From positions 26,087,001 to 26,151,000 of the forward strand of contig NC_057916.1 in the NCBI RefSeq assembly GCF_018873765.1: a stretch of DNA of 64,000 bases, written 5' to 3'. Made by a program: the position numbers and the translations under genes. Below the pieces are notes generated by a model. The model was not told the DNA's origin. It ran no database searches and saw only the letters and a list, made by a program, of their open reading frames with translations. Position 1 is the stretch's first letter. Every line of letters starts with the position of its first letter. This document shows, piece by piece, positions 6,086 to 63,881 of this stretch. The stretch comes from Telopea speciosissima (taxonomy: Eukaryota; Streptophyta; Magnoliopsida; Proteales; Proteaceae).

Positions 6086-6157
6086 ATTAGAGTGGCGCAG
6101 CGGAAGCGTGGTGGGCCCATAACCCACAGGTCCAAGGATCGAAACCTGGCTCTGATA
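6086..6157 (+). tRNA. Initiator tRNA-Met (CAU), possibly slightly degenerate
   Basis: The 72-base sequence matches plant initiator tRNA-Met in all loops: D-arm GCGCAGCGGAAGCG, anticodon arm GTGGGCCCATAACCCAC with anticodon CAT, and T-loop ATCGAAA. Start A1 pairs with T72, a mark of initiator tRNA. Two positions differ from the sequence I remember: acceptor position 3 is T (a T-G wobble with position 70), and the T-stem has an A opposite G (C49AAGG against CCTGG). No intron is present. A T5 tract lies about 27 bases downstream as a possible Pol III stop. The 3' end is the complement of the primer-binding sites of the LTR elements at 43,425 and 49,347. It is either a functional divergent copy or an early pseudogene. 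Confidence 0.85.
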
Positions 6158-11732: not shown

Positions 11733-14700
11733 TTAGTTTTTTCCACTGTTCGCATCGTAGAACTCAATCGAACGTCCATTAAGAGGCTGCACAGGCCTTG
11801 CGTTGTTTTTGCATGATCCATCCAATGGAGCTTTCAGAGCTTCAACCTGCTCCTTGCTAACGTCTCTCACCTGCATCACCAGCATCGATTTCCATACGTA
11901 TAAGTTGTATGGGGCCATATCAGCTCGATTCCACATAAAAAATTAACAACACCCTTTAAGTTGTCAATAGATTTATAATCTTATTTTATTACTTTTTTAG
12001 TATAATACAAATTTTTTTTTTAATGAAAGTAAATTCTATCATTTCATATGTGTTCTCGATAAGATAAATGCACAAAACAATAATAGTTTTTAAATTATTT
12101 TTAAAAATTCATTTATACCTTTAACTTAAAAAACTTTTGAAAATAAGATAAGAAGCAATTAGATGAAGGCATGGTTCGTAATCTCGGATCGGATCGGTAT
12201 CGGTCAAGGCCGATCCTGAGATTTGACCGATATAGAAAGGTTTGACTGGATCATTCCTTGGATCGGCCGATCCGGTCCGATCCTTGACTGATTTGACTGA
12301 ATATATATATATATATATATTATCTAGATCGAAATTGACCGAAACTGACCAATACCAACCAATATTGACTGATTCGATCCGATCCGGCTAATATCGGCCG
12401 ATCCGATCTCGAGATCAAAACATCCATTAACTTTGGCCGATACATGATCCGATCCATAAAAAATTGATTTTGGGGGGTTTTTTGACCGATCCTAACCAAT
12501 TTGTACCAATTGGATTCCGATCAAAAAAGGTTTTGACAATGATCGATCCTGAGTCCGATACCTGAATTTTAAACCTGGATGAAGGTGTCAATTTCTAAAT
12601 ATACCTATAAAGTGTCATTTAAAAAGTCCCATTATGTAAAGATATCTTTTACCTTGCTAAGGATGCTCCAGGTAACATTCTCTGTGCATGGAGGAGTGGT
12701 GAGAGAACCAACGTATCTGTAATACTTGACAGCTTTGCGCTTCAAGTACTTACTTCCCAGTTCAACTACAGGGATGTGAACTTCTTCATCCTCTCCACAT
12801 ACCTCCTTGGTCAATTGTGTAATCTCCTTCCTTAACTGCAAAAACCCCAAATTTAGAACAAAAAACCAAACCTATTCTAATACACACATCAAATCTCAAT
12901 TTGTATTTTTCCTACACAGTTTTGATGGTAAATAATGGCAACCTATGTTATGACACTAAGGTTGTGTTTGGTATGCATTATAGGTCGAAGAATGCAAAAT
13001 TGACTTGGAATGTATTCCAAGAATGAATATCAAACACTGTCTAAGGTTGTGTTTGGTATGCATTCTAAAATGATAATCAAAGAGCATTCATGACGTTACC
13101 AAAATAGATTGTAAGAATCGACATTAATTGGAATTGGGATCAATCAGTTTGTTTCGATTTCTAAAACCATGAGTCTACCTGAACGAGAAATGGATCGACA
13201 TGACCATAATTGTAGAGGACTGCCACCACGGAGATGTGGCCGTCATCGGAGACGTGAATTTTTTGGAGCTCCAAAGGATACCTGTTATTATCCAAAGCTT
13301 TAATGAAACTGCAAAATTTATTTCAATTACACAAAAATAAAGCGAAAGTTTCTCTTCAACGTCATGAAGAGAATCCGAACATTAGTTTGTTTTCCCCAAA
13401 ATACTCTCTTGATACCCTCCTCCGTGCATCTGAAGTCTCGCGGTGAATGAATTTTCATTCACTATAGCTTAAGGAAATTAAACTCGGTCCATCTTAATGT
13501 CCTATGACCAAACTCTTCTTAACTTCATGAATCAATAACAGAGATTATAATGTTTCGATGTTTTACCGGAGACCATTAATTGTGTGTTCGGAAGGGGAAT
13601 GCCAATCAATTTTCTTCAAGGTGTAGTTCTTGCCATCTTGAATCAACACCCCAGCGTTGTTTTCATATTGCAGCTGTCCAAAATCAATCAAAAGAAGAAC
13701 ATATATAAGTAAGTTAAAAGGGAAATAGGTTGGAGAAAAGACCAGCACAGCCGTGGTCCTTTCCGCCTTTCCAGAGGGATGCACCAATTATTTTATTTAC
13801 GTTGGGCTGTGTCTAGGTGCAGGTATGCACCGCACCTAGCGACCAATTAGCATTTCTTTTTCCTAATAATAATAAACTATTAGAAAAAAAGAGGCTTGGT
13901 CTCATCGCTCCTGTGCCCAGACATAGGAGAATGCAAAATTAATTACCATCTAGCCACTCTTAAAATAAAAAATACAAGATGTGTTGATGCCCATGCATGC
14001 ATTCTCATTGGCCTCCACACTGCTGCAAGGGTTACACGACAAGGCAATGCTCTCATGTCGTCCTCCTCCTCCTAATAATAATAATAATAAACTATTGGGA
14101 AAAGAAGGATGCTTGGTCACATGGCTCATGTGCAGGAGTATGCAAAATTAATTACTGCCTAGCCCCTCCTAAAAAAAAATCTCATCCATGTCAATGTCCC
14201 TGTGTGCACTCTCATTGGCCTCCACGTTGGTGCAAGGGCTATACGACCGGGATCTCTTGTCCTAAACTATTTTTATCAAATTTTCCAGTTTTTATCGGGT
14301 TTTTTTTTTAATCTTGGTTTTTGGTTTTGATCAGCCCATTTGATTGGTTCGGTTCTTCAATCGAATTTGGTCGGTTCAACCGGTTCGGGCTGGAATCAGA
14401 AAACTCACATATTTTTTCCTTCTATTATGAGGAGAAAGGACCATGAAGGGTGGTAGAGGGGGAGAAAAGAATTGAATTAACGAACCCCAATACTGAAGCC
14501 ATAGTTAATCAATGTAGAGTTGCTTTCTTCGTAAACTTTGGTCAAAGGTGGCAACTTGTGATTATCGACGACATCCTTCTTCACAATGTTCACCGGAGAT
14601 TGAAGCTTTCCGGTGGAACATGCGCTGAAATCTGGACTCAAGCTCCCCCAGTTGCCCGGACCTGTTGCTCCACTGTAACTAAACTGCACAACCTCATGCT

Positions 14701-14853
14701 CTGTTCCAGAAAAATGACTTATAAGACCAAAACTAAAAATTAATTGAGAAGAAGCAGAAAGAGATGATGATCATGAAGTTTCTTACGCTGGGTTAATGGG
14801 GCAGCTATCAGTAATGCAATCCCGACGACAAAAACGGCGCCTGTGAGTGCCAT
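11733..14853 (-). CDS. Alpha-type carbonic anhydrase-like protein lacking two zinc ligands (6 exons, 270 aa)
   Basis: The exons read leftwards: 14853..14787, 14700..14486, 13673..13567, 13281..13179, 12835..12653 and 11870..11733. Phases match at all five GT-AG introns, giving 813 nt including TAA. The protein starts with a hydrophobic signal segment (about residues 1-19), so it should enter the secretory pathway. Alpha-CA hallmarks follow: a GxxNWGSLSPxFSAC tract, [27 protein letters not shown] and the [12 protein letters not shown] motif with the conserved Thr and Cys. Length is usual for plant alpha-CAs and nectarin-like proteins. The oddity is at the zinc site. The first ligand of the H-x-H pair is Asp (Asp-Trp-His, 13,60x), and the third ligand in the E-L-H-x-x-H tract is Gln (Glu-Leu-Gln). 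Only one of three His ligands remains, so carbon dioxide hydration is unlikely. Storage or binding roles, as known for some alpha-CA relatives such as yam dioscorins, are possible. The frame is intact, so it is likely expressed. Confidence 0.88.
12181..12570. repeat. CCGATCC/GGATCGG-word repeat with an (AT)n core, in alpha-CA intron 5
   Basis: The left end has GGATCGGATCGGTATCGG and the right end reads as an imperfect inversion of it. The centre includes about 20 bp of pure AT repeat at 12,301-12,320. It belongs to the same dispersed family as 8290-8520 and 15,180-15,400. Confidence 0.55.
12957..13065. mobile_element. Small MITE with repeated terminal motif, in alpha-CA intron 4
   Basis: AAGGTTGTGTTTGGTATGCA occurs at 12,957 and again at 13,042, and between them lies an inverted AATATCAAACACTGTCT end. 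One 80-bp element followed by the start of a second, or one partial duplication, would explain this. The family is shared with 4668-4898. Confidence 0.5.
13890..14060 (+). mobile_element. MITE, older insertion in alpha-CA intron 2
   Basis: Same family as 14,097-14,262, directly upstream of it. The TAA-rich sequence CCTAATAATAATAAACTATT occurs at its left and, slightly expanded, at its right. The right copy in turn is the target of the next MITE. Confidence 0.55.
14097..14262 (+). mobile_element. MITE, 166 bp, perfect 9-bp TSD, in alpha-CA intron 2
   Basis: Starts GGGAAAAGAAGG and ends CTCTTGTCC, flanked by perfect TAAACTATT repeats (14,088-14,096 and 14,263-14,271). The counterpart in the truncated gene copy is at 829-993, so it was inserted before the duplication. 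Confidence 0.8.
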
Positions 14854-15179
14854 TAATGGGGGATCGATGGAGGAAAAGGCTTGGTTTATTATCTTCGATC
14901 TCTGTTTCCCTCTCCTCCTGTGTATCAACAAGAAGGAGAAAACGGGTTCTTATAAATATAAAAATTTTACAGACTTATAAGAAGGGTATTAAGTTGTGGC
15001 AACGATTCCCGAAACCTATCTGTTCCTGCTAAATTTAGAGACAATTAACCCCCAAAAGTTAGTGGTGTGTATGTTCGATCCCCTCGAATCGTCTGGAGCA
15101 ACCTTGACCATCTTCTTCGCCAAAAAAAGTTTTAGTTACCTTGGCTATGGTCCTCCGTACCCTTCATGGTTTTAGTGCA

Positions 15180-24410: not shown

Positions 24411-24989
24411 TATAGGTAGACATATGAGTCAATGTTATAGGAAGAAAGTCAACAAATGAAACCTACCCAAAGGGACATCTCAGGGGATGAATCACAAATC
24501 ATCATAGTTTCAGTGGTCCTACACAGTGATCTAAATAACTTTACTTCACTACAACAGTTAGGTCGGTTGGTACTCCACTCAACTCACACCATTTAGAGCC
24601 ACATAAGGCTTGAAGTTTCTAGGGTTCTCACATAATAATAACCAACCGACCCAAGAAACAAAGGGCAAACTTCTGTCAGCTTCCTGAACTTAAATCTTTT
24701 TCTGATCCCCCAAAGTGAACTTTCATCACATTCCTTTCTCACAGCTTTTAAAATACCTAATTTGTCTATTACACACATTTTCATTATTTTTTTACTTCAG
24801 TTTTTAATCTATCTCTTAAGTATGTATTGGGATGATTTAATTACATATTGTGCAATTATTAATGCTATATTATCCTTTAGTATCTTTATTTAATTTTAAC
24901 ATCTGCAAGAACACATTCAATCATTTCTAATTTTTTTTCACCATTAATTAGTGGATTAATTAAAGCATCAAATTATTTTAATACATACA

Positions 24990-25052
24990 TTATGATCCTC
25001 CCTAGACCTTACAGAGGCGGGAGCCTCGTGCATTGGGTACGCCTTTTCTAAT
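24990..25052 (+). mobile_element. Au-type SINE, 3' part only
   Basis: Contains the diagnostic 3' block CCTCCCTAGACC...GGCGGGAGCCTCGTGCA..GGGTACGCC. The tRNA-related head is missing. Confidence 0.75.
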
Positions 25053-25540
25053 ACATACTTAGACTAAATTAATATGTGACCAGAGGATGGTCATGTAGGC
25101 ATTATAATAGAATATATATATTGAAGTGAAAATACAACATTAATAGTTATATAAGGGATTTTTTTCTTATTGAAAAATTGAAGTTGACAAATAATTTGTA
25201 ACACTCAAAATATGTACATGACAATGACATGATGATATGTCATTTTTAAATTATTTTTAAAATCTTTTTTTTTTTTTTTTAAGAATTGAGAGCTTTTATA
25301 TATATCTTACTTTTTTAGGGAGGAATAGGGAGGGGTCAAGGTACCAGCTAGGAGATTCGAACTCGAAACCTTCTAGTCACCATAGCTCATCATCTGCACT
25401 AGACAGCTGTTGGTGTTATTTTGAAAATCCTCGTATACCCTGAACTTAAAGAACTTTTAAGAATAAAACAAGTGGTAATTAAAAATAGTTGTCCTCAGAC
25501 ACTCCCACTATATAATATCTAATTAAGTCTAACTTAACAT

Positions 25541-38927: not shown

Positions 38928-41900
38928 ATGGCCTCCATAGCCACCTGTTTCTCGGTGACAGCGAAGACGAAGTCCAGCCATAGTTCTTGTCACACCCTCT
39001 CTTTAAAATCTTCGATATTTTGTAGTTCTCTACGTTTTAATTCTTCGAGCTTTCAGACTTCAATTCTGCTTCAGAATGCCTATAGATTTCAGAACCCGAG
39101 AGTTCCATTTCCTGTTATTAGAGCAGGCATCGAAATTCCTGATGCAATTAAACCTGGTAATTCTGTCGAAACCGATAAGCTGCCGTCAGATGTTCGAAAT
39201 CGAGCAATGGAGGCTGTTGATTCCTGTGGAGGCAGAGTTCCTATCGGAGACGTGGCAAGTAAAGCAGGTCTCAAGTTGAATGAAGCTCAGAAAGCATTGC
39301 AGGCGCTTGCCGCAGATGCTGGTGGATTTTTGGAGGTACTTCTTGGGAATTATGTACTCCCCCGTTCGTATTTTTCTTAGTTTTGAGCTGGAACGGAACT
39401 TGTTTTCATGGTTTTCTATATGGAGATCAATTTTTCGTTCCTACGAATTTATGCTATTCTTTTGCAGGGGCTGATTTTGCCAATTTGAAAAGGGGGAAAA
39501 TATAATTTAAACTACATTAGATAATTTTCTTATTTGAAGACTTGGTTTTGCTGCGTTTGCTACTTTGAATTATTACTTCCACTAGCATGCTTTGAACTTC
39601 ACGGCGGGAATAAATTAATAATGGCTGCAAAGAAGCTTCAAATAAAGAATTGAACTTCACAGTACAAAATGGAAGAGTTTTAATTTAAGTATCAGAATTT
39701 GAATACACACGTCCATTTAAGAAATATTACCATGACTAGAAGCTAATGGATTCTCACGACTTTGGCGAAGTGAGCTATTCAAAACTTGGAAACAGCTGTG
39801 GTTACGTGCGTTTATTTTATAGCACTAGTACGGGTAGAAAATTATTAAATGGACAAATGGTATAACTCTACACTTGGGATGAGATTTTGTTGAGTTTAAT
39901 GGCGTCTAATTTGTTTTTATCGTTACAACTCTGGCTAATGGAAGAAATAATTCCTGACAGTGTAAACTATTAGTCACTGATCTCTGTGAAGATGCTCCTT
40001 GTTATGTTTGCAATGTACTGCAAATAACTTATTGATCGTTCCAAACTATTGAGAACTTCCTTGTAATAGATTTATAGGGCAGAATGTGAATAGCAATAGA
40101 AAATTCAAGAGCATTAGTATGAATAACAGCAGAAAATTTAAGAGCATTTTTTATGTTATTTTTCTTCTTGGATGAAATTTTATTAACAGAAGAGAAATTA
40201 CATCTATAATGGTCTAGCATGACGAAGTTTGGTTAGGCGCAACTGAAAGGCTACTACTGCTGAAAAGAACAATCTAATAATGAGCATAACTCTAGGGACT
40301 TTCTTCTTCAGTGCCTGTAGTTAGCTTTAGGCAAGTACCGAACAAAACGATGTAACATTAAGCTAGTCACTATCACTTGTGGAAAAGCCTAAAGCCATTA
40401 TAGTTCGTCACTTCGTCTGTTGGAATTTGATGCTCTAGCCAAGCTTTAGAAAACCTTAAAAACCTCTTCTTTGAATTTTTTGGGAACTTGTCTGATACTA
40501 CCAATAACAGAATCTTTTGCCAGAAAAAAAAAATAAAAATAGCAGAATCTCTATGAAAGTTCATTTGAATTGAGGTCCAAGCAATCATTCTCTGGCTTTT
40601 CTTAATATTTCATAAATGGAGTCATGAAATGGCAAAAGAAATAATTGTAATAAATAAATGGGAGAGGGTTGGGCACGCTGCTGGCTTTCCTGGAGCTAGC
40701 GGCCGTGCCCAATAGAGAGGGTGGGAAGGGGAGGGCAGGGGGGTCATTTCCATAGGGGGTGGTAGAGAGACAGACTCAGGCTGGGCACAGCGCCAGCCGC
40801 CAGCGTGCCCAGCCTTTACCCTAAATAAATAAATATGAGGAACATACAATGTCGATCATTCACAAAATAATGTCTGGGAAGAAATAGCAATGTTGTATGT
40901 GGATACACACTGAACAAGATGTTTTGAACCATATGTTCAGCAAAAAGTTCCAAAGCACAAATGTTTTTAATAATGTGGGGAAGTTTTAGGAATTTCCCTC
41001 TTCTTCACCCTGACTACTAGCATTGCTTGAGGCCGATTCTACAAGGATAGGATCCTAGAAGTCTTTTTAAGTTCCATTCAATTGATAAGGGCAGGGGCCT
41101 CCTTATTGTTAGTCAACATACCTGCATGTTCAAAGAGAATGTAAATATTCCTACCTTTTTTATGATTTCTTTTTAATTTCTCTCTGAATTCCCAATGTAA
41201 AATTTTGAAATATTTGAGTTTTTTGAAGTTTAGAACCCATTCTATAAGCATAATCTCTATACTTTCCACAAACTTGCTTTGTGGGCCTAGGTTTCTGTGA
41301 ACCAGTCTCCAGTTTCTTTCTTGATTCCTCCAAAGAAACAGTACTGAAAACATTTACAGAAATTTACTTCTCTTTCTTCCATATGTATCATCTGTGCATC
41401 GGTTGACCAAATACACCAATTTCTGTGGGGAACCCTTTGACTGCCTTCAAGGGATAGCAAATATCTCCACAGTAACCTCAAGTTTGCAATGTATGATATT
41501 TTGAATCTTCTCCTCATCTTTTGCCAGGATGATGGGCATATTTTTCTGGATTTTAATGTTACTGTGAACCAAATGGTCCTGGTCCACCATAAAATAGCTA
41601 CTAGGGGCCTGAAGTTTATTTTCCAGTACTCTCAATTAGGTTGATCATTTGGTTTATCATCTTAGATTGGTTTCTGTTATTGCTAAGGAAGATGAACAGT
41701 TTTGACATGCAATATTAGAAGCATTCTTTATCATGCCATTCAAAATTTAATGCGACTTCACGTCATTTATTTCCGTGTTCATGCATCTAGAAACTGATGC
41801 ATACATTATGACCCTCCCCAGACCCCACAGTGGTGGGAGCCTCGTGCACTGCATACGCCCCTTTTTATGCATCTAGAAACTGAAGAATTTGGATTTCATA

Positions 41901-44900
41901 GGTCAGAGACCTTTTTCGAATGGCAGCATTTGAAAGGATAGGCTACATTTTTGTGTTTTTAATATTCTTTGGGTCTTTGTAGTTCTTGATTTCGTAAGTG
42001 CAATCCTTTTTAAGATCGTGTTGACAGGTTTCAGATGAAGGAGATGTACTTTATGTTTTCTCAAAGGATTATCGCTCAAAGCTTTATGCCAAATCTTTCA
42101 GGATGAGAGTTGAACCTTTGCTTGGAAAAGCACAGGTATTGATAACTCCTTAAATGTTACTTAGACATTAATGAATACTATGAGTTTTATTCTTCTTATT
42201 AAAATATATGATGGAGGCTGATCTGTCTTTTTACAGTCTGCAGTTGAGTACTTAATAAGGGTATCCTTCGGGACAGCCCTGATTGCTTCAATTGTTCTTG
42301 TCTACACTACAATCATTGCTCTTCTATCAAGTAGAAGGTATATTGTTTCGGCCTAAATACTTATGCTCCTTGCACTCTTTTAGCTGCATTTGGATTCAAT
42401 GAAGATTTCAAGATTTGAGATCTGCTAAGCTCCATATTCTGGTATTAGAATATGATTTCTGGGCTTATTTTGGGAATCAGCATTATTTGGAATAGATAAT
42501 TGTAAACCTTTATTCATAAAAACAGACCTTCAACCAGACAGTTGGAGGTTTTAGTTTGGGGTTTCAACTGGTGACTGGTAATCGATGATCAGTGATCAGC
42601 ACTCCGCGACCAGTGACACCAGACAGTGGGAGGTTTGGGTTGGGATAGGTTTTATCAGGAGAAGGCTGCTATCTCCAAATCCATCTCAGGGTGTATATTG
42701 AAATAACAATGGTGTATGTGAATTCAGAACATTTTATTTGAGGGGTTAAAATGCTGTCGTCAGTTTAGCAAGGAATCCTGGCATTCTATTTCCACCTGCA
42801 CTCCTCCGCAAAGCTATACGAATGGTGGTACTGGGGCCAATCCAAACAGTATCTTCATCTATTTCATAGTTGTCCCAGTGTCTAGGCGACCCTAGATGTT
42901 GGAGGGGGGCCTGGACGACTTGACAACTACGATCTATCATGTATTGATGGCGCATCTTGATCTTTCCCTTTTCTCTAGTTATCTCATGTTAATATTTTTA
43001 GTTTCTTCCCCCTTTGAACCAAATGTAACAGGAAGATATTGGCTACATGAACTTTTTATATCTTTCGTTGGTGACAGTGAAGAAGACAACCATGGAAGAC
43101 GTGGTGGCAGGTCATATGATTCAGGCTTCACTTTTTTCTTTCGTCCATCCGATTTGTTTTGGTAATATTTTCTAAGTCTGACATAATCTTGATTTCTAAT
43201 TTTTTAGCATCTATCAGTTTTAACTATATGTGGTAACTCCTTAAGCATGTGTTATATGTAGTGGTCATTTTTTGGCCTATTCCTGAACATTTAAGTGAAG
43301 TTTCTTTATAGAGTAGATAAAAAGATCTGAAAATTTTTAGAATGTTTTTGAAAGAGTGTTGATGTATACATTGACGCTGCCCTTCCCCAACAGTTCGAGC
43401 TTTTAGGTGAAACGGTAGCGAACATGGTATCAAAGCAGGGAGGTCAAATGTTCGACTCCTGGGAAATGCATCGGGATCTTGGCCTGCACGTGCAGGGGAG
43501 TGTTGATAGATACATTGACGCTGCCCTTCCTTAAAAGTTCAAGCTTTTAGGTGAAACGGTAGCGAACAAAGAGTAACCTATAAATCTCAAACTATTTTGT
43601 TTGATCTCCCTATACTTTGAGAAGAGATCCAGGGAATTGATAATCGCCCATAGATTGCAATAATTATAACTCAAAAAAAATAAAAGTAGGGGCGGATCTT
43701 AACTCAAGTGAAACTGGACGTTGATTTTCAACTTCTATTATTTGATGAGTCAAGAATAAGATTTTGTAAGATAAGTTGTCTAGTGGGCGAGCCTTGGCGC
43801 AACGGTTAAGTTGCGCTATTGCAACCATCAAGATGAGGGTTTAAAACATAGAAACAACCTCTCTGCGAAGTGGGGTTAAGCCTCTCCTAGACCCTGCAGT
43901 AGCAGGAGCCTCGTGCACTGGGACTCTCTCTTTTAAGTGATCTACTATACTGTTGAGGCCTAAAAGATCTCATGCAGACACTAGCTTGCAAGAAAAGGTA
44001 GACCAGTTGGATCTCATGTCAGAGCTTCTGACATTTGTGAACTTGTTACCAAGAGAAGGCTAGAGAATAAATTTATCTTTGGCTCTTTAGCAAACTAATA
44101 GGAGGGGTCACAGTAATCAAAGGCCCTCACATTCTTTCTAACTAGATGTTCCATAGAGTCACCGGGAATGTGATCTCTTGTCTCTACTATTGAACCGAGG
44201 GCCCTTCTAGCATCCAACATTTTAGGTCTTGGTTTCGCCAGGCCATGAAACCAAGTTCTGCTGAGATCTCGGTGAGTTGGTGTATTTTTTTCCCGTCTTG
44301 ACTCGGTGGTGGGTTTCAGTGGCCATATGGCCAAGATAGGTTCTGAAACTTGACATCCACCCTATTTTAGGCCTTCTAAACACAATGGAAACATTAGTTT
44401 TTACAAATTCAAACCCAAAATGGTACTTTGACTTCGGACCCTAGGTTGGTAGTCTACGGCGTAGGTGAGCTCTACCCTAGGCTATTCCACACAATATTTA
44501 CAACACATATAATTAAAGTAGAGGTGTAAAACAACTTAATTAAGCATTAGGAATTAAAAAAAAATCAAACCATAAACCATTTAAGCATTAGGCATCATAT
44601 TCATAATCATACATGGTGATGGTTTGACGGTTTGTTAATAATTGTTAGAAACTTGGAAAGAGACATAGATTAAACAAATATAAGTGTTAGTGTGTAACAA
44701 GTCCTACCATGCAAGAGTAGCTAGTACTGAAATGAGTGTTGGGCTGGATCATCAAAACGACCATGTTGTTGTCAAATCAAGCTCTGCTCTTCTGTTTTAC
44801 CTAAAACTGTTCTTGAGATGCAATCATAGTTGTCATGGCGTCGCCATGGCGTCCTGGCGTTGGGAGAGGTGGCATATCGAGCTACGCCATGGTGGATGTC

Positions 44901-47900
44901 AATATATCGTTCGATATGGCTTCCATGGCGACGCCATGGCGTCGCCATGGACGCCATACCACGATATGTTGGCATATCGGTCGATATTTGTACATATAAA
45001 AGTTAGATTAAAATTTTTTTTTTTTTAAACCATTTAATAGCTTAGATGCTTTGCTCCAAATCACATACACTAAAGAAAGACTATTGCTATCAAGCTTCAG
45101 TAAACAGGTTAGCCTATCATTTGATTTTTACTATTGCTTTAAATTATTTGATAGGTTAATCTATATTTTCAATTTTTCATACTTTCATATACACTAATGG
45201 ATATTAGTTACACTTTCATGAATTAAACCATAGTGGCATAGTATATTAGTAGTAGTGTAGTACACTTTCATGTTGATTTTTGATGTTATAGGACATATAT
45301 TATAGCATACTAAATGACATTAAAAATACAGAAAATAAAAAATTAAACATGGTCGACATGCTCGCCATGGCAACGCCATGGCGGGCGACATGTCGATATA
45401 TCGACGTGACACCCTTCCACCGACTTGGATCGCCGTGACGCCGTGACAACTATGGATGCAATGTGGCTCCCTCTCTTGATGTTGAAGCTTCAATCTTGAA
45501 TCTCCAAGCTTTAATCTTCAGTTGAGGTGAGATTTGCCAAAAAAAAAAAACAGTACCCAAACCCTCACCTCCAAGTGTTTTTCCTTCACAGCAGAGTGAG
45601 AGAGGCGAGATTTGGAGTTTGAGGTCGAAATCTTGCCAAGAGGGTGCCTTTTTATAGCTTGGTTTGGTCCTGAGTCAAACCAAGATCGAGATATACCACG
45701 AGATCTCAGAGAGATACCGAAGATCTCGACTGAGATCTTGCACAAATCCTGTATCGCCTATCGTCTCGTCTTGAGACTTCACAAAACCGAGATATTTTCG
45801 AGATCTTGGTGAGATCTCACCGAGATCTTGTACTATGCTAGCATCCCAATAGGCTAGGTGAGGTGGATGTCATTACCTGGTTCATACCAATTTTCAAAAT
45901 AAGCAAGGTCTATTCTTCAAAGTGATGCGGAAGCTAACCAGTCAATGGTGAACCGTTTCAGCATCTTGCAAACAGAAAAAGCGACATTTGGGAATGCATA
46001 AACCTCCAGTCATTAAGTGATTTACTGCCAGAATGCTGTCCAGACAATATATGTGGGGAATAGGCTCCTTTTGGTTGATGGAATCGAAATGGAATTTTAC
46101 TGTAAAGGATCCTGAGTTTTGTTTGACCCAACTGTGCTATTATGAGCACCATCAGTAATTCTATACTCTTGAAAGCAGATCTAATAACTGTTGAAGCTTC
46201 TGTATTTCTTAGTCATTAAGATTTCTTCTAAGGAAGAGGGCCCATATTGCATGTGTCTTTGATTTGCCCATAAGCCACCCTTGCATCCCTATTATATGCC
46301 ATGAGAAATTTGTCTGCTGAAGCATATAAATAGGGAATATGTTCAGGCACTATTTGTACATCTAAAATCTGATATTTTTATCATTGCTGACAGCAGTTCA
46401 GATGTTTTCCTTGAAAGCTTCATCTGTGGATATGAATATGATGCGTTTTTCACCTCTTCTGAGCAGTTTCTCATGAGCTTGCTTGACCACACGTTGCAGA
46501 AATAACCTGTCTCCCGTATTCTGTCAGTCTCAATGTTGAAGAACCAGAGCCATTACGGGTGAAGCATTATTTAGAGGTGTGATTTTCCTAAGACGCACTC
46601 CACCTGAGCTAATGAGCTGGCAAACTTGACCCCGCTCAACTACATGAAAAATACGCTGGTTTCTCCATCCATCCATCCCAATTAGAAAAAAATGAGTTGA
46701 ATCTTATCCAATTTCTTGTCAACATAAGCACGCATTATAAAGAGAGATAATAAAAGGAACATTGGACAGGGTTGCTTTATTGAGAGCGAGATTCTTCCCT
46801 TTGACAGTTAACATCCTTTCCATGAGGTTAATTCTCTTTCGTTCTGATGGCAGGACAAATAGACCTGCTTGTAGGTAGCTCCACGGGCCATACCCAAATG
46901 GAAAGAGGCAAGATTTCCAACCCCATGGTCCAGGTTAGAAGCAAGCAGATATATGTTTTGAACATCTCGTACTACAATGATCTGACTTCTGGAAAAGTTA
47001 ACTTTCAGCTACAGCCTCAAGGCATCTCATTATGCAACTCAAATATCTGCATAGGTGATGAGAGCAAGGTGTCAAGTATCGGTATAGGGCAGCATATCAG
47101 AAGCTGGTTTTAAAAGATGTGTATCGGAGAGACGCTAGATACGCTTTCCAATGCATAGATATTCTTATGATGCATGCAAAACAAGTGCTTTTAAGCATTG
47201 TGCACCATAAATAAGCAATAAATAATGGTATCCAACCAATGTTAGTTAGCTCTGTCTTCACAACATCTATGTGATTCAAATCTTCATTGGCAAGTGCAAT
47301 GTTGAAGTTACTAATAATTAATAAGAAGAAATTAAACGAGAAGTTTTTAAAAAGAAAATTCTATTAGTGTATTATGACCCTCCCCAGACCCCGCGGTGGC
47401 GGGAGCCTCGTGCATTGGGTACGTCATTTTTTGACCCTATAAGTCCAAACGAAGCAAGCAATATATAAGTATACACATACTGCGAAGTATTAAGTCACAT
47501 ACATTAAGTATATATGCTACAACTCTACTAGTAACATTTTTTTTTTGGTGAATTACAAGTAACATATTAAACAAACATGGTATGTAACTATTAATAATAA
47601 GTATTTAACAACAAACATAATTATACATTATAAATCGCAAAGCATTTAAGATTATCCAAATCTAGGTCATTTTTCCAATTTAGATGTGATACTTGACAAA
47701 TGCAAGCAAGAAAAACCAAGACTCAAGCAAAAAAAATCAAACTTCTTTAACATATTTCAATCCACGTCTTTGATGATCGATCTCCACTTTGATGAGCTTT
47801 AATACAAACTTTTGCTTGTTTAATTAATCCTCATAGTTATTTTTGAGTGTAAATGGGATCCACTTAGGTTTTGACAAAACCAGTCAGAGTATGAAGTTCT

Positions 47901-50900
47901 CTTTCAAAAACTGGGATTTTTGGGTTTTGGAAGCTTGTGTACCAAGTGCATCGGTCCATATCTGTATTGTATCGGTCTGTGTCAGTTCTGTACATAATTT
48001 TATGTATATCAACATGGCCAATCTTGATAACTAATGGAGTGATACAGCCGATACATATCGATACTTGATACCATGGATGAGAGGCACCCCAAAAGATTAG
48101 AGTGTTATCAACAGAATGTGCATGTCATGGGTTAGGAATGGAGAAACCCTCAATGGTTCCAATCTCCACTGCTTCAGAGAATATGGTGCTTAGCACCTCC
48201 ATACCAAGGATACAGAGGAAAGGGAAAATTGGATCCCCCCCTTTTACTCGAAAGAAAAAAAATGATACCATCAATAAGTAAAGAAAAGCCTGCCAAAGAG
48301 TAACAAAGTTCCATTAACTTGTTTCTGGTGTTGATTGCTTTTTGTCAAGAAGTATAGGAACTATTTATTTTTTGAGAATTGAGATAATTAAATAAGTTTG
48401 AAATAAACATTGGAATTGGAGCCAATGTCTAATATTCTCACCTGCTTTGTAGTATATAACATTTGAAGTTTGTTGCTATTTGCCAAGTATCTTGACTTCC
48501 TGTATGATACATTCCATAATACCAAAATCGGTATAGCAAGCTGTATTGCATTATCGTTGTGGTGCTGATACAATAAATACTACAATGGTATGATATGCTA
48601 TGGGTTTTTAATCCATTCGGACTCAGATCTGACTCAACATGTTCTCATAGAACTAAACAGCAACTTGAAGCTTGGAAAGGATCATATAGGTTTTTATTTT
48701 AATTTATTCATGTTGTCAGATGGATTATAGTATAACATTTTACCATTATGCATGTGTGTGTATCTCTAACAGATGTGCATTTGGTAGGTATTGGGATCCA
48801 TACTACTATAGGAGGCGGCAGATAAGAACAGAAAATGATGGCATGAATTTTATTGAATCTGTAATGTGAAAGATTGGCTCATTTTATTACACTTTTCTGC
48901 TTTGGTTTCCCAACTCTGAAGTAATATCATTTTTTGGTGCTAATTCCGTGTAGGTTTTCTCATTTGTATTTGGTGATGGTGATCCGAATCAAGGAATTGA
49001 AGAAGAAAGGTGGAAGTTGGTAATTCCTTGAGCATATTTTTTGTACAATTTTTGTCAAACTGATGTACCCCTTTCACTAATCTCCGCATTGCTTTTAATG
49101 CATGTATTTGCTCATTGTATGCACGGCTGTGAGTATTATTGCTTGTTGAGTTATGTAACCCTAATACCCTATGAGGGTATTTTTGTGTTTTTTACTTGTT
49201 TCTGTGTGTTTATTCCCTGTTACTAGTACAGTCAGCTGTACAGGGTATTCTTGTAATTCTGCCTTATTATTGGAAGATGTAAATGAAGGGGCTGAGTGAA
49301 CAAACTATTCTCTCAAGCCATTTCCCTAATTTCTGTCTTGCTAACATGGTATCAGAGCAGGACCCAAAAACCCTATTCTGATCTAAGTCAAAAACCCACC
49401 TCCTTACTTCCATCGTGTTCCTTTCTTCCCCCCTTTTCTTCGATCTTCTTTCCCTTCACCTAAGGGCAGCACTAATGAGGTGATCTTATGATCTAGTTGC
49501 TGCCCTTAACACCACCTCATCTTCTTCATGATGTAATCCATCTCTATGCCCGATAGTTGCTGCTCTTCCCTTTGAGATTTTGAAGTTTTCCATGTTTTGA
49601 TGTTTCAGCCTCGAAACCTGCTGTAGGATGATCTTCCTTTGATTGGAGCTTCCCTTGCAACCCTAATCAGCAACTATCAACCTTTCCCATCTCTCCTTTG
49701 CAGCTTCTACCCTCTAATCAATTTTTCTTTTCAGTTTTTCTGTCCAAAAACCTAACTCCAATCAATTTTTGGTTTAGGGCTGCTTAGATGCCTATTATTG
49801 CTGCTTCTTTTGGTGCTAATTCCTACAATCACAATCTTCCCTCGAACTCAGTTTCAGCCCTTATTTGTGCATCTTTCGAGAGATCTCTTTTTCCCCTTTT
49901 CTTGAGATCGATTTTCTCTCATATCGATCTCAAGGTTCTTGGTTCTTTGTGGCTGACTCCATTGGGTCATTGCTTGTTCCCTTCATCATTTGGCTGGACC
50001 AATGACAGGTTCAGACTCTTCTTCAGCAACCTCTGGGCTTGATAGCCAATCTCGGACAGAATTTCTTCCCTTGGCTGCTCCTATCAAACTCGATGGCACA
50101 AATTACCTCAAGTGGTCTCGGACTACCTACTTGACCATTGCTGGTCGTGGCCTTACAGGCCATATCCTTGGTACTATCCCCATTCCGGCTGAAACTGGTT
50201 CTCCGCAAGAAAAGTGGATGTCACATGATGCTATGGTGATGTCCTATTTGATCCACTCTATGCAACCAGATCTGTCCGACAATTTTTTGCTTCTGGAGAC
50301 TGCCCATCAAATCTGGACTACCGCCAAGGAGACTTATGGACACGTTGGGAATGATGCTCAGGTGTATGAGATTCGAAAGAAGGCTCATGACACCACTCAG
50401 AAGGAGCAGTCTGTTTCGGCGTACTATGCTGCTCTCAAAAGCTTGTGGCAGCAATTGGACCATTACTCCGACTATCAGCCATCTACACCTGCTGATATTG
50501 CTGCCTATCGGAAACACGTAGACAAAATCCGTGTATACGACTTCTTGGCAAATCTGAATGTAAGTATGACCCTATTCGCGTGCAAGTGCTGAGCCGCTCT
50601 CCCTTTCCTACACTAGAGCAGTCCTCTTTGGTTCATGCCAAGGAGACTCGCCGCGCTGTGATGCTACATACTCCTACTGTTGAAAGGTCTGCCCTCTAGA
50701 TTACTTCCAGCCCCACTCCCATTACCATTAATGATGGTGGTAATGCTGCCTCCAAGGAGCCTGTCAAGTGTGAACACTGCAACAAACCTTATCACACCAA
50801 GGCTTAATGCTGGAAGTTACATGGGAAGCCTGCTGATTTTGAGGCCAAACGGGGCCGTGTGAAGTCCAAGCCCAAGGCCCATCTTATGGAGTCTTCTGCT

Positions 50901-53900
50901 GCCGTTGCTGCTGCTCCATCTACTGACGTTGGGCTTACTCAGGATGAACTCTTGGCTTTCCGTCGCATGCTACAGGCCTCTTCCGCTACACCTATTACGG
51001 CATCTGTACCTGCTACCCCTTCTGGTTCTCACTTTGCCTCAAGTGTTCCAGTCAGTAGTCATTGTGCATTGGCTGTCTCTGTTCCTTAAATTATAGACTT
51101 TGGTGCCACTGACCACATGACTGGTTCTTCCCATGTGTTTCACCAGTATTCTCCCTCTTCTGGCAAAGATAGTGTTCGAGTAGCTAATGGTTCTCTTTCT
51201 CCTATTAATGGAAAGGGTTCCATTCGTTGCTCTTCTACCCTTACATTAAATACTGTTTTGCATGTTCCTTCCTTGTCTACCAATCTTCTTTCCATTAGTA
51301 GTCTAACTAAAGATTTGAACAGTAAAGTAACTTTCTTTCCTTCTCATTGTGTCATACAGGATCTGGTGAAAGGACACACGATTGGGGGTGGTAAGGTACA
51401 TGGTGGTCTCTACATCCTTGATACGGGTCAGACTTGTCCATCATCAGCTTCATCCCTTGCTCATCAGTTACATTCCACCACTTCTTCAGGTCTCCATCTA
51501 TGGCATTGTCAGCTTGGTCATCCTCCTATTCGAACTTTGGCTTTTTTGTTTCCTTTGTAAAAAGGATGAGTTTTTATGTGAAGCCTGTGTTTTGGCTAAA
51601 CAGACTCGTTCCACTTACTCTCCATTAAATAAAAGAATTATTTCTCCCTTTGCTTTAGTTCATATTGATGTGTGGGGCCCTGCCCGTTGTGTTTCCATTT
51701 CTGGCCATAGATGGTTTCCTTTATTGATTGCTTTACTAAGACCACTTGGGTATATATGATGCAACACAAAAGTGAGGTTTTTCGACGTTTTTAGCTATTT
51801 CATTGTATGGTTCAGACCCAATTCAATACCACCTTAAATATTCTATGGAGTGACAATGGCATCCTTCATTAGACCAGCTGTGTAGACACCCGGGCCCAGA
51901 ATGGAGTGGCTGAAAGACAAAATAGGCACCTTTTGGAAGTGGCTCGGGCAATTATGTTTGCACGGCAGGTCCCTCCTCAATATTAGAGTGATGCTATCCT
52001 TATAGCTGCCTACCTCATTAACCGCATGTCTACTCCTGTTTTTGATGGTCGTGCCCCTGTTGCCTTCTTCAAGGTTCTTCCTCGTTTGTAGTTCCCCCAA
52101 AAATATTTGGTTGTGTTTGCTATGCTCGCTACCATCATCTTCACGGCAAACTTGATCCTCGGAGCATTCGGTGTATTTTCTTGGGCTACTCCGCCACCCA
52201 GAAAGGTTACAAGTGTTATCATCCGCCCACTCGGCGTACATTTGTTACCATGGATATTATCTTATATGAGGCCCTGGCATATTATTCACAGCCACCTCTT
52301 CAGGGGGAGCATGATCCAAGGTTCAAAGATGTGTCTGCTCTCCTACCGGCTCCTATTCAGGGGGAGCCTTCTTCTCCAGTACCTTCCACCTTTGTCTCCC
52401 GTATGATTCCTATTCAGGGGGTGAGTAGATCTGTAAGTCAGAATCCTGTTGATCAAGTCTATACTCGGAAGCAACAAAGAGCAAGTTGAGACTACCACTA
52501 CTGTACCACTTCTCCAATCGTCAGAACTTGATCTAGATCCAGCCTCTGCTATACCACCCAGTAAGGATCCTTCTCTTGATTTACCTATTGCTACTCACAA
52601 AGGCATTAGGTCTTGCACCCAACATCCCATCTCCAATTTCGTTTGCTATGATGCTTTGTCTCCTTCCTATTGTGCATTTGTGTCCTCTCTTTCCTCTGTT
52701 TCTATTCCTAAAAAATGGCAGGAAGCAATTGCACATCCAAAGTGGAAAGCAGTCATGATGGAAGAGATGACAGCTTTATCCAAAAATGAGACGTGGGAGC
52801 TGGTGGTTTTTCCTTCAGGTAAGAACCAGTTAGTTGTAAATGGGTGTTTGTTGTCAAGCAGAAGCCAGAAGGAATTGTGGACAGATATAAGGCCAGACCT
52901 TTTGGCCAAAGGCTTTACTCAGACCTATGGGATTGACTATCAGGAGACGTTTGCTCCAATTGCAAAGTTGAACACTGTTTAGGTTTTGCTTTCATATGCT
53001 GTCAATCTAGGCTAGGATTTGCAGCAATTGGATGTGAAAAATGGATTCCTCCATGGAGAGCTGGAAGAGGAGATTTACATGGAAGTTCCTCCGGGTTTCT
53101 CTTGTGACAAGACTAATGGGAAGGTTTACAGGCTGAAGCGGGCATTGTATGGGCTGAAGCAATCCCCTAGGGCTTGTTGGTAGGTTTCATAAAGCAATGA
53201 TCTCTATAGGATACAAACAGAGCAATGCCTATCACACCTTATTCATAAAGTGAAAAGGGGAGAAGGTTACTCTTCTTATAGTCTATGTTGATGACATAGT
53301 TGTGACTGGTAACGATTCAGCAGAAGTTTCCCACCTGAAGACCTTCCTGAGTCGAGAATTTGAAATAAAAGACTTAGGACAGCTCAGGTACTTCCTTGGG
53401 ATTGAAGTTGCCCGTTCTCCCAAAGGCATTTTTCTCTCCTAAAGGAAATATGTTCTAGATCTACTCTCAGAGACTGGTTTGTTAGGATGTCATCTATGTG
53501 ACACTCCTTTGGAAACTACTACTCGCCTGCAGGAGAAGGATGGTGATCCGGTAGATAAGGGGCGATATCAACGGTTAGTGGGAAAACTAATCTATCTCTC
53601 CCACACTAGACTGAACATTGCATCTGCCGTAAGCTTGGTCAGTCAGCTCATGCATGATCCCTACTCCACTCATATGGCTGCTGTCCTTTGTATTTTCCAT
53701 TACTTGAAGTCAGCTCCAGGAAAAGGGATTCTCCTGTCTCTGCATGATCATCTTTGCATTGAGGTGTACAAAGATGCTGACTGGGGTGGTAACCTTGACA
53801 GGAAATCCACTTCAGGTTATTGTACTTTTGTAGAAGGTAACATTGTCACATGGTGAAGTAAAAAGCAAAATGTGGTGGCAAGGTCTAGTACTGAAGCCAA

Positions 53901-56900
53901 ATTCCGTGTCATGGCCTAGGGTATTAGTGGTTCTGTTAATCTTCCAATGATGTTGTACTGTGACAACAAAGCAACAATCAGCATTGCCCACAATCTAGTG
54001 CAACATGATCGTACCAAGCATGTGGAGATCGCCAAACACTTTATCAAGGAGAAGTTAGAAAGTGGGCAGATTAGTAGACCTTTTGTGAAGTCTGTTGATC
54101 AACTTGCTGATGTCTTTACAAAAGGGCTAAGTGGAAAGTTATTTCATCCTAGTCTAGTCAAGTTGGGCATGTGTGATATCTATGCCCCAACTTGAGGGGG
54201 AGTGTTGAGTTATGTAACCCTATAAGGGTATTTTTGGTTTTTTACTTGTTTCTACGTGTTTATTCCCTATTACTAGTATAGTTGGCTGTACAGGGTATTC
54301 TTGTAATTCTGCCTTATTGAAAGATATAAATGAAGGGGCTGAGTGAACAAACTATTCACTCAAGCCATTTCCCTAATTTCTGTCTTGCTAACATTGCTGT
54401 TTGATCATGTCCCATTGTAAATACATGATTATGAGGGTAAAGTTCTTAGCCAAGATAGAGCAAGCTTAAAATATGATATGCAGACGTGTCTTTATGTGTA
54501 TAATGGTAATGGTACCGGGAGGTGGCAATCACCTATGTGCAGCCATAGTTATGTTTTGTGACACTGGGCGACTCCCTTGACCTTAATAATGAGTATTCTG
54601 ATGCATGTGATTTCGTCCATTAATATGTTAACATATCATATTTAACCCCTTGTCCTTTATCTTTGATTAATAATCTCCAAATAGGAAAAGGTTAATACAT
54701 TCCTTGTAGTTGATAAATTAATTTTGTTATAAGAGATCAATGTCTTCCTCATTCATCATTATTCTGGAATTTTCTTTGCAGATTGGACAATACATAGCTT
54801 CAAATGGGGGAGTTATCACAGCAGAAGAGCTTGCTCCATATCTTGATGTTCCACCAACAGCAGAAACTCTGGTAGTTCTTCTGCTAGTTTTTCAAAGAAG
54901 ACACAAATTTGTTGTTTTGCTTTTGCATCTGGATTGTTTGTTTGCAACGAGAATTGCTCAGGATACAAGCTCGTGAAGAGTATTGATCTTTTCCAAATTC
55001 CAAAATGGGGCTTCAATTTTTCTCTTAGATTGTAATGGGAAAGACAACCAGAATTTTACTATTGATACAAAATTTTTTGAACTAATTTCAATAATTCAAT
55101 TCAGTGGTACCTTTCTACTTCATGAGTTCCTCTCTATGTGCAACTGAATGTGCCTCAGTGTTTTGTCTGTTCTGCATTATTTGGCCAAAGATCTTGCAAA
55201 TCTACATTTTCTGTTACAATCACTGAATTCTGACACATTCCAGGTATGTTGCCAAACCGGGGCTTCTCATAGTCATGGCCTCCCAGAAAATTGATCCTAA
55301 CTTCTTTCCCTCCTATATGCCTTTCTGCAGCTTCATTAATAATTCAAAACGGAACTGTCCACACCATAGTTGTCATGGCGTCTAGGCAACCCAAGGCGTT
55401 GGAGAGGGTCCAAAATCAAGGTGACACCAACTAGTCGACCAAGGCGCCTAGGCGACACCTTGACAACAATGGTCCACACTCTTCATGCCCTCCACACTTA
55501 CATCTTCATTGGTGCTACCCTTCTTACCAATCTCTGCCTTGTGAGAATTCTCATTTCACACCCTCAGCCACAAGGTGACCTATCTTAGGTAACCCTTCCA
55601 TCCTAATCTTTAAGGTGATTCCTATAATATTAGTAAACAGTATATTTGCTGGTGTGGAAAAAGACTTTACAACACTTGCTGTAATAAGAATACATTTCAC
55701 ATATGGAGAATCCGAAGGAATGAAGAAACAACAGACGAAGACGCAATGTTAGGGTTTTGAAATGTGAGAACTAAAGAGAAGATAAAAGAGACTAATCAAA
55801 CCAACTCAGAAGATATGCATACTTCACTACATTCTCGCTGTAGACCAGCAAAACTAAAATCCTAATGAGAAGGTTCAGTTCAAATGACAAATGGGCCGCG
55901 AAGAGTGATCAATAGGATGTAAGAATGAATGAATACTCCTGCAAATCTAAGTGATCACTTGGAGAATAATTGCAAGTTTTCTCTCATTGATGTGGATAAT
56001 ATATGCTGTCAATAGAAAAGTTAAAGAAACCCAATAAACTGAATGAGCTGAAAGGAAAATGTCTAAACAGGGCTTAAAGAATAACAATTGAGAGAAGAAG
56101 ACGAAAAAGAAGAGTAACATTTGGAATCCACCTAGCAGACAAAAATTCAATTTAATGCATTGATAATTAATGAACTAGATTTATTTATAAATTTTTGAAA
56201 TATTCCTATTCCTACTAATAATAGCATTTTCCTAATAAGAAACTAAAAGGAAAAAGCAAAGAAACAAATGTCTCCCCTTATATAGTGTGAAACTTCACGA
56301 TATTCAAGTTCTATTGGAAATAGGACTGCTGCAATGAAAGAAAGAGACTAAATAACAACTTAAATGGGCTCCTAGCACGACTAAGAATGCCCAAAAATTA
56401 AGGTAAGGAAAGGAAGAGTCAAACATCTGTCCCTGTCTTACGTGTCTGGTCCACCAATCTTCAAGGCTACCCAAGCCGTTGAACCCTTTTCCTTGGCTTC
56501 TAAGGCTCACATCAACTTGTCTTTTGGTGCTGCAATCAAGTTGGGGCATAGGACGGGGAAAAGTAATTGGAGCTGGTTTTTGCCTGGATTCTTCAGTCAC
56601 TCCACTTTGGATATCATCCATCATTTGCTCCTCAAGCTGCAATGACACTGTAATTATTGGATTAACCAATAAAAGAAAATCAACATCCATGCCCCTAGAG
56701 GAAGCGAACTCCAAAGAATGCCAAAAGTTTTTTTCCCCTACCCCGCCCAAAATAACTGCTGCAATGTCAGAAACCAAACCTGGATTTGGGTTAGAAATGG
56801 TATAAATGATTTGTACAAGCTTCTAACAACTTGTTCCATCAAGAATCGGAAGTGTGATGGGCAAAATCTACTTAAAATTGTGGATTTTAGGCTCATAGCA

Positions 56901-61309: not shown

Positions 61310-63881
61310 CTCCCCCTCAAGTTGGAGCATAGATATTAGACATGCCTAACTTGAACAAAAAGGGATGAAAATTTTTTCCTCCCAACCCCTTAGTGAACAC
61401 ATCAGCCAGTTGATCACCAGACTTCACAAAGAGTACACAAACCAATCCACTTTCAAGCTTCTCCTTGATGAAGTATCGGTCATTCTCCACGTGCTTGGTG
61501 CGGTCTTGCTGCACTGGGTTATGGGCAATGCTAATTGCAGCTTTATTATCGCCGTATAACATCATTGGAAGAGGAGTAGGTACACCAAGGTCTTGGAGTA
61601 AACTTCGAAGCCATAACAACTCACAAATTCCTTGGGCCATTGCACGGAACTCTGCCTCAGCACTTGATCTAGCAACAACATTTTGCTTCTTGCTGCGCCA
61701 TGTGACTAGATTGCCACCAACAAAGGTGCAATACCTTGTAATAGACTTTCGGTCCGGAGAACCAGCCCAATCAGCATCGGTGAAGGCTTCAAGCCGAAAA
61801 TTATCATGAGGAGATAAAAGTATTCCCTTTCCTGGTGCTGACTTTAAGTAGCGGAGAATATGAAGGACAACATCCATATCGATGGAATAAGGATCATGCA
61901 TAAACTGGCTTACCAAGCTTATGGAAGAGGCAATGTCAGGTTGCATATGAGAGAGATAAATCAGCTTTCCTACTAACCATTGATAAAGGCCCTTGTCAAC
62001 TGATTCACCATCACATTCCTCTAGCCGGGTATTAGATTCCAAAGGTGTGTTACTAGGATGAGAGCCCAATAATCCTGTTTCTGATAGGAGATCTAGGATG
62101 TATTTTCTCTGGGAAAGAAATATGCCTTTGGATAACCAGGCAACCTCAATCCCAAGAAAATACCTTAGCTTTCCCAGATCCTTTATTTCAAATTCTCATC
62201 TCAGAAAATCCTTGAGACGAATAATCTCACCATTGTCATTCCCAGTGACCACAATGTTGTCAACATATACATGAGAATAGTAACCTTGTCACCAGTCCGT
62301 TTGATGAACAAGGTGTGATCAACATTGCTCTGTTTGAATCTTACAGAGGTCATGGGCTTGCGAAATCTGCCAAACTAGACTCAAAGGGACAGTTTCAGTC
62401 CATATAACACACGCTTCAGCTTGTAGACTTTGCCATTGGTTGTATCGGTCGAAAAACCAGGAGGAACATCCATGTACACCTCCTCCTCAAGCTCTCCTTG
62501 AAGGAAAGCATTCTTCACATCAAATTGTTGAAGATCCCATCCCAAATTTACAACACATGATTATTAAGCTTTGCTGCTGGAGCAAAAGTCTCATGGTAAT
62601 CGATTCCATATGTTTGTGTAAACCCTTTAGCAACCAGTCTTGCCTTGTATCTATCCACAGTACCATCAACCTTCTGTTTGACCATAAAAATCCCCTTATA
62701 TCCAACCAGTTTCTTCCATGGAGGAAGAGTCACAAGCTCCCATGTATTATTTTTCCTCAAAGCCTTCATTTCTTCTACCATAGCTACTTTCTACTTTGTA
62801 TCTGCAATAGCCTCTTGCCAATGTTGAGGAATGCAAACAGAGGAAACAGAGGAAACAAAGGTATGATAGGAATTAGGAAGTGGATAATGAATCATAAGAA
62901 ACAACATGAGATATAGAATGCTGAGTGCAAGTCCTGGTACCTTTACAAAGAGCAATACGTAACTTAGGAGAATACTCAAGAACAGACTCAGGAAAAGAGA
63001 TATTACCAGGAGAATTCAGTTTTGGTTCAAGGGACTCCAATTGAATAGGTACAGGTGCTTGAGTGGTGGTGGTCTCAACTTGCTTGTTTCTGGCGCGACT
63101 CCTCTCATAGGTTTGAATATTTGGATCATCAATTTTCAATAGGAGCACGTGCATCCAAAATGCAAGTGGGCATACGATTTATAAGGTAGGCAGCGGTAAG
63201 GACAATATCACTCCAATACTAAGAGGGAACATGACGGGCAAACATGAGCGCACGAGCAACTTCCAATAAATGGCGGTTCTACCGTTCGGTCACCCCATTT
63301 TGAGCAGGGGTATCTACACAATTGGTTTGGTGAACTATCCCATGATCAGCAAGATACTTCTGGAACTAACCCTCTATGTATTCCTTGTCGTTATCACTTT
63401 GAAGAATTTTGACGGTAGCTTGATACTGAGTCTGAACCATTTTATGAAACAGTTGAAAGCACTGGGATACTTTCACTCTTATGTTGCATCATGTAGACCC
63501 ATGTATTTCGAGAGTGACAGTCTATGAAGGTCACAAACCACCTATGACCAGAAGTGGATACTCAGCGAGAAGGACCCGCACATCAGTATGCACCAAATGA
63601 AAAACAGAAATACTTCTTTTATTAACTGGTAAATAAATAGACTGAGTCTGTTTGGCCAAAATACAGGCCTCACAAAAAAACTCGTCTTCATTACAATGCT
63701 GGACTAACTTAGGAAAAACACAGGACAAAGTTCCCAAAGGTGGATGACCAAGTCGGCAGTGCCAATGATGGAGATTTGAAGAAGCCGAATGAAGCTGATG
63801 TAATGGAGAGGGTAATGCTGCTAGTGTAGTAGGAGAACCATCTTCAAGCAAGTAAAGACCACCATGCACCTTATCCATGGT
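61103..63881 (-). mobile_element. Second Ty1/copia element, inverted, 5' end cut off (intron 8)
   Basis: On the minus strand: integrase start (CEACILAKQT near 63,640), reverse transcriptase ([16 protein letters not shown] near 62,780 and [17 protein letters not shown]), a YVDD position that reads YVDN with a frameshift near 62,270, RNase H ([33 protein letters not shown]), then the purine tract at 61,310-61,322 and the likely 3' LTR (61,309 to about 61,103, starting TGTTAAATTG; its other end is a guess by size). Protein text is close to that of the copia at 49,144, so both are of one lineage. The element stops abruptly at about 63,881, before gag and the 5' LTR, where a TTTCGGTATA-type repeat starts. 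Confidence 0.85.

Follow-up and report, generated by a model that had tools for sequence, protein, structure and literature searches.

A 212-bp LTR retrotransposon in Telopea speciosissima looks like one internally deleted copy of a 291-bp TRIM/SMART-type family

Introduction

The locus described here raises the question of whether an LTR retrotransposon of only 212 bp represents a mobile family of that size or a single shortened copy of a larger one. It lies in a 64-kb stretch of Telopea speciosissima DNA, hereafter the window, in which a sequence-only reading had described an extremely small LTR retrotransposon, below a remembered lower limit of about 290 bp. Such a limit corresponds to the SMART element FRetro129 of grasses, which, with 292 bp and 85-bp LTRs, was the smallest reported in 2012 (PMC3281118), and it has since been overtaken by CcaRetroS9 of pigeon pea, a 233-bp TRIM with 52-bp LTRs and 10 complete copies published in 2016 (PMC4717578). 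Among the titles, abstracts and text passages covered, no TRIM shorter than 233 bp was seen; within the same coverage, neither a paper on TRIMs in Proteaceae nor one on this particular family was found, and a full-text search with sequence words of the element returned no paper.

Results and Discussion

Structure of the element

The following features were assigned at the locus (PBS, primer-binding site):

43352-43356, plus strand: target-site duplication AAGAG, left copy (direct read of the sequence)
43357-43424, plus strand: 5′ LTR, 68 bp, TGTTGA..GAACA (repeat alignment; family LTRs elsewhere in the genome)
43404-43459, plus strand: possible split Pol III promoter, with an A-box-like motif at 43404-43415 (LTR) and a B-box-like motif at 43449-43459 (internal) (box scan, shuffles)
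43425-43436, plus strand: PBS, 11 of 12 positions complementary to initiator-Met tRNA (12-mer comparison)
43425-43500, plus strand: internal region, 76 bp, with 79 bp missing relative to L040, a family member of 291 bp (alignment to L040)
43483-43496, no strand: perfect palindrome of 14 bp, CCTGCACGTGCAGG, running into the beginning of the purine tract
43494-43500, plus strand: polypurine tract AGGGGAG adjoining the 3′ LTR
43501-43568, plus strand: 3′ LTR, 68 bp, differing from the 5′ LTR at 6 positions (repeat alignment)
43569-43573, plus strand: target-site duplication AAGAG, right copy

Two direct repeats with TG..CA ends, spaced by 76 bp, thus make up the 212 bp, and their gap-free alignment shows 62 identical positions out of 68. 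The coordinates, length, LTR size and terminal dinucleotides given by the sequence-only reading proved exact to the base, and the initiator-Met primer site, the purine tract and the AAGAG duplication that it had named were all found in place. The PBS was scored against the 3′ end of initiator-Met tRNA with CCA added, and the duplication is perfect at both borders, where a 5-bp match at fixed positions has a chance of 0.0013 given the base composition of the window. Sites within one mismatch of the 12-mer complementary to the tRNA occur only twice on both strands of the 64 kb, at 43425 and, as an exact match, at 49347 inside a Copia-type element. Close direct-repeat pairs of at least 40 bp (12-base seeds, spacing 90-1500) numbered five in the window; none exceeds the pair at 43357 in length, and no other pair has such a PBS behind it. 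A second pair, at 13998 (43 bp), also happens to have TG and CA at its ends.

A dispersed family in the Telopea assembly

Only one copy of the element is present in the window, as would be expected if it were no transposon at all, merely a local duplication with LTR-like ends arisen by chance. Further copies were sought in the window's own assembly (822.9 Mb, 1287 contigs). A search with the element gave 74 matches from the best 40 of 563 candidates, and the junction of LTR and primer site was found at 277 genome sites at up to three mismatches, against none for the reversed pattern. In total, 120 loci were examined, namely the window and 119 fetched loci (the element search supplied 39, an LTR search 20 and the 100 listed junction sites 60); since these were selected by likeness to the window copy and by the junction pattern, the lengths and counts given below are biased and represent lower bounds.

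Two LTRs were present at 99 of the 120 loci, more than two at 5 and a single one at 16. Among the two-LTR loci, the 5-bp duplication was exact in 39, carried one mismatch in 25 and more mismatches in 35, while a control in which flanks of different loci were paired gave 0.23% exact matches and 2.6% with one mismatch. The 39 exact duplications comprise 37 distinct sequences. Against this background and the 277 junctions, the reading as a chance local duplication is refuted and retains practically no probability. The expectation of the sequence-only reading that multiple copies with different 5-bp duplications would exist was thus borne out, and the contrary outcomes it had named, a single copy or copies sharing their flanks, are ruled out by the dispersed family. 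Segmental copies, with both flanks in common, were seen in the pairs L010/L012 and L119/L120, and two further pairs have a few words in common on one side.

The element has direct LTRs with TG..CA ends, a PBS beside the 5′ LTR and a purine tract adjoining the 3′ LTR, and the family shows duplications of about 5 bp that differ from site to site. The exact PBS 12-mer occurs in 55 of the 99 two-LTR copies and the variant of the window copy in 11. With 201-314 bp, these copies fall below the limit of about 1 kb used for non-coding TRIMs and are too short for gag or pol. The junction count, together with the varied exact duplications at two-LTR loci, identifies the element as a TRIM/SMART-type non-autonomous LTR retrotransposon belonging to a dispersed family.

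Solo 68-bp LTRs, also anticipated by the sequence-only reading, did not turn up in clean form among the 20 loci from the LTR search, nor among the 16 single-LTR loci, all of which also match internal sequence; the loci from outside the LTR search had been selected through their internal sequence, so that solos could not appear among them. Two loci showed unusual arrangements: L026 (G000:C2:22298931-22299885) is a tandem array of the family with five LTRs, and L031 (G000:C7:24780145-24781123) holds two adjacent members, one flanked by an exact CATTC duplication and the other by an exact CTTTA duplication.

Length of the window copy and of the family

The length of two-LTR copies ranged from 201 to 314 bp with a mode at 291 bp (18 of 99), and the window copy was the second shortest, after the 201-bp copy L009, which is without a clean duplication. 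Alignment to the 291-bp L040 placed the difference in one block, positions 119-197 of L040 (79 bp), with the junction in the window at about 43473-43475 and a 2-bp GG microhomology by inspection. Among the 99 aligned copies, this deletion is present in the window copy alone; L011 (223 bp) has the same left breakpoint in pairwise alignment and a different right end.

These data bear on the reading that the 212-bp form is itself a mobile subfamily, and hence the smallest known LTR retrotransposon family. It draws on the presence of every cis signal within 212 bp and on mildly shortened forms of 275 bp and 252/253 bp, which seem to have moved. However, a 30-mer spanning the deletion junction had a single genome match at up to three mismatches, the window itself, while control 30-mers from undeleted parts fitted 50 and 67 of the 99 copies under the same rule, so that a 212-bp subfamily of several copies would very probably have come to light (this recovery rate is perhaps somewhat high, the 99 copies having been chosen by similarity). 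Likewise, a pattern running from the PBS to the purine tract at the short spacing matched one site, again the window, compared with 17 sites at a spacing of 90-120 (exact matches only). A separate mobile 212-bp subfamily is therefore very improbable and largely refuted in this assembly. The record size looks like the property of one privately deleted copy, and the claim of an extremely small LTR retrotransposon holds for the element as a real insertion and not for its size as a family trait.

A junction search with a 16-mer at two mismatches was uninformative, with 1231 matches against 148 for the reversed control; its second exact match (L129) and eight fetched one-mismatch loci (L130-L137) had no similarity to the element.

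Shortened copies and timing of the deletion

Other copies have lost internal sequence as well. Exact duplications combined with deletions in the internal region, each with its own breakpoints, were found in L011 (223 bp), L013 (224 bp), L110 (250 bp), L108 (253 bp) and L015 (261 bp), and the deletion junctions of L009, L010 and L011 sit at repeats of 2-5 bp by inspection. Four copies of 275 bp, each at another site (L019, L033, L042 and L070), have a 16-bp deletion in common, and a 252/253-bp layout is common to three (L060, L068 and L088, whose duplications have one or two mismatches). Mildly shortened forms of the family may well have moved, although both layouts could also recur at internal or short repeats; for the 212-bp form, there is no indication of such movement.

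In a further group, L051 (242 bp), L073 (248 bp) and L106 (262 bp), the duplications are exact and gaps run past the 3′ LTR border, suggesting loss after insertion; in L073 (duplication CTATC), the end of the purine tract and about half of the 3′ LTR are missing. L094 is also gapped over this border.

With regard to the window copy, its deletion might have occurred during reverse transcription, by strand transfer at a short repeat, in which case a 212-bp cDNA would have integrated as such, cleanly and with its 5-bp duplication. The intact ends and exact duplication of the window copy, the exact duplications retained by the five internally deleted copies and the short repeats at the L009, L010 and L011 junctions are consistent with this course of events. 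Nevertheless, a loss after insertion would leave an identical picture, and such losses do occur in the family, as illustrated by L073 and by the gaps in L051, L106 and L094. We thus regard integration of a 212-bp cDNA produced by slippage as possible, at clearly less than even odds. If it did take place, the lower size limit for integration of plant LTR cDNA would lie below 233 bp, and the packaged RNA may still have been the 291-bp form.

Age of the insertion

The LTR difference of 6 in 68 corresponds to a Jukes-Cantor distance (JC) of 0.094 with a 95% interval of 0.034-0.209 and gives no sharp age. Across the 64 copies whose duplication has no more than one mismatch, the LTRs differed by a median of 9.7%, compared with 8.8% for the window copy, and 29 of the 64 (the window copy itself counted) were no more divergent. 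The age of the window copy is hence typical for the family, and its earlier description as moderately old, from about 6 differences in 68, was a fair one. Rates of 1.3e-8 to 2.5e-9 per site and year would spread the point age over 3.6-19 million years, and no date is claimed for this reason.

Copying route and candidate helper

We consider it highly probable (about 0.93) that the locus holds one copy of a TRIM/SMART family of modal length 291 bp, presumably mobilised in trans, most likely by Copia-type machinery, and that this copy additionally underwent a private 79-bp loss. In such a cycle, RNA would be made from the LTR, initiator-Met tRNA would prime reverse transcription at the PBS, the purine tract would prime the plus strand and the target would be cut 5 bp apart by an integrase, with a Copia-type element as the most likely outside source of these enzymes. 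The window copy appears to have lost 79 bp at the 2-bp repeat, either through template slippage while it was being reverse-transcribed or at some point following its insertion. A helper of the Copia type is suggested by the terminal sequences, the PBS, the purine tract and the length of the duplication.

The window contains one such element:

49144-54393, plus strand: Copia-type element, 5250 bp, LTRs of 203 and 191 bp, target-site duplication TTGCT

It is located 5.6 kb from the 212-bp element and begins shortly after an exon-like stretch near 48970. Its coding region is broken over several open frames, and in a profile scan of four pieces, three were matched and the fourth gave no match; a gag and a Pol beta-barrel family scored above the curated cut-off, and gag-pre-integrase and reverse transcriptase below it. 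Both elements have TGTTGA..AACA ends, a PBS for initiator-Met tRNA (TGGTATCAGAGCAGG in the Copia element) and a GGGGAG/TGTTGA border at the 3′ LTR, but they differ greatly in size, and their LTRs align only over the first bases. The border 12-mer and the PBS are common to many plant Copia elements, so the neighbouring element is a candidate helper only. After the PBS, no similarity between the two elements continues beyond 15 bases. In the 25 bases upstream of the common purine tract, 12 match the Copia element, a score reached by 999 of the 127950 25-mers of the window, so that a relation of the internal 3′ end to that element is no more than suggested.

The autonomous partner with similar LTR ends that the sequence-only reading had proposed to look for was not found in the best 40 of 753 LTR candidates, since the window and the 39 other loci are all family members; those single-LTR loci that diverge early appear to be truncated or interrupted, and none of them represents such a partner. 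At 61317-62195, a minus-strand Copia fragment was observed in which ..IYAPT precedes the purine tract, as in the plus-strand Copia element.

Possible RNA polymerase III promoter and RNA folding

The family might be a variant of the proposed TRIMp3 group, with a tRNA-like promoter for RNA polymerase III divided between the LTR and the adjoining internal region. The A-box-like and B-box-like motifs have one mismatch each and start 45 bp apart, as in tRNA genes; a box pair of this kind appeared in 14 of 5000 shuffles, and the same box scan of the window picked up the genuine tRNA gene and a single further position. This stretch can likewise be aligned with the sense T arm of the tRNA (82 of 2000 shuffles did as well). 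Across the family, conservation of the B-box stretch is 0.91, compared with 0.874 for the remaining internal region, although the values for the A-box (0.942) and the B-box barely differ from that of the whole 5′ LTR (0.919), and the loci were partly chosen by a pattern near the boxes. Moreover, a search of Rfam with E up to 10 returned no tRNA, a TTTT run lies over the start of the A-box in the 5′ LTR, and the B-box-like site could instead provide extra pairing with the primer tRNA (40 of 2000 shuffles equal). A split promoter predicted from consensus boxes is therefore faintly suggested, and transcription of the family by RNA polymerase III appears unlikely.

The 212-nt RNA folded with a z-score of -3.8, and neither 200 shuffles nor 300 repeat-keeping shuffles contained one as good. 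By part, z was -2.2 for the 5′ LTR (11 of 300) and -3.9 for the 3′ LTR (1 of 300), and the internal region was unremarkable (137 of 300). Since GC-matched sequences of the window fold equally well (21 of 500 212-mers; 185 and 60 of 3393 68-mers for the 5′ and 3′ LTR, respectively), no claim is made from RNA folding.

Relation to known elements

Seen as a whole, the family is an ordinary TRIM family. It resembles FRetro129 in its length (291 versus 292 bp), non-coding nature, TGT..ACA ends, 5-bp duplications and tens to hundreds of copies, and differs from it in its 68-bp LTRs, in a comparison by structure and size only; for FRetro129, eight solo LTRs are reported along with a candidate autonomous partner, and the loci sampled here contained nothing of either kind (PMC3281118). 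CcaRetroS9, compared here by size, is likewise a very small TRIM, yet its 233 bp is a family size, whereas 212 bp in Telopea is the size of a single copy of a 291-bp family (PMC4717578). The same survey records 156 plant TRIM families in 43 of 48 genomes, with 278 of 289 subfamilies lacking an identified autonomous partner and TRIMs often located in or near genes, a picture which the present family matches in structure, tandem arrays (L026), absence of an identified partner and genic location (PMC4717578). Its Table 1 and the five TRIM-less genomes named there include no Proteaceae.

Helenus/TRIMp3 elements (311-1263 bp) are small TRIMs with a tRNA-like sequence and thus share with this family the possible tRNA-like Pol III boxes; in Helenus, however, that sequence lies within the LTR, whereas the boxes of the present family lie on either side of the LTR border and fit no tRNA model (PMC10886601). 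The 5S rRNA-like LTR sequence characteristic of Cassandra and Ajax gave no match, Rfam search included, and the hammerhead ribozyme found in Retrozyme LTRs gave none in Rfam at E up to 10; Rfam includes hammerhead families. In prokaryote and virus collections, pattern scans of viral and genome contigs and BLAST against plasmids and phages returned nothing, as expected for a plant element.

The analysis adds a TRIM family from a Proteaceae genome, with at least a few hundred junction sites and a length on a par with the smallest grass SMARTs. The ladder of internal deletions, from 201 to 291 bp, indicates that much of the sequence between PBS and purine tract can be absent from insertions in which both LTRs and an exact duplication are retained. 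The case also calls for caution, in that a single copy of record-small size should be compared with its family before a size limit is deduced. Standard settings conceal elements this small, as in PlantLTRdb, where the minima are 100 bp for the LTR and 1000 bp for the LTR distance and no TRIMs are reported (PMC10025401).

Genomic surroundings

Two further features of the window concern the setting of the element:

43162-48787, plus strand: host intron carrying the element in sense (GT at 43162, AG at 48786-48787; junction read by eye)
6086-6157: initiator-Met tRNA gene (T-stem mismatch by inspection)

The element starts 195 bp into the intron, in the same orientation as the gene. The flanking exons join in one frame across GT..AG, the upstream exon ending in ..PSDLF-W (junction by eye), and the host is putatively a conserved chloroplast protein gene like At5g03900. 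The 3′ end of the tRNA gene matches the PBS of both the 212-bp and the Copia-type element.

SINE-like repeats (..GGCGGGAGCCTCGTGCACTGGGTACGCC..), presumably tRNA-derived and Au-SINE-like, are present at 43784-43935, 24981-25056, 41797-41872 and 47363-47438. An origin of the LTR from such a SINE was considered and rejected as chance: with the better of the two LTRs taken as the observed score, 1 of 1000 shuffles was as good for one of the four nearby copies, and 19, 181 and 724 of 1000 for the others. Finally, a block at 364-1766 is repeated at 13505-14999, about 13.2 kb apart, in pieces that are 89-98% identical.
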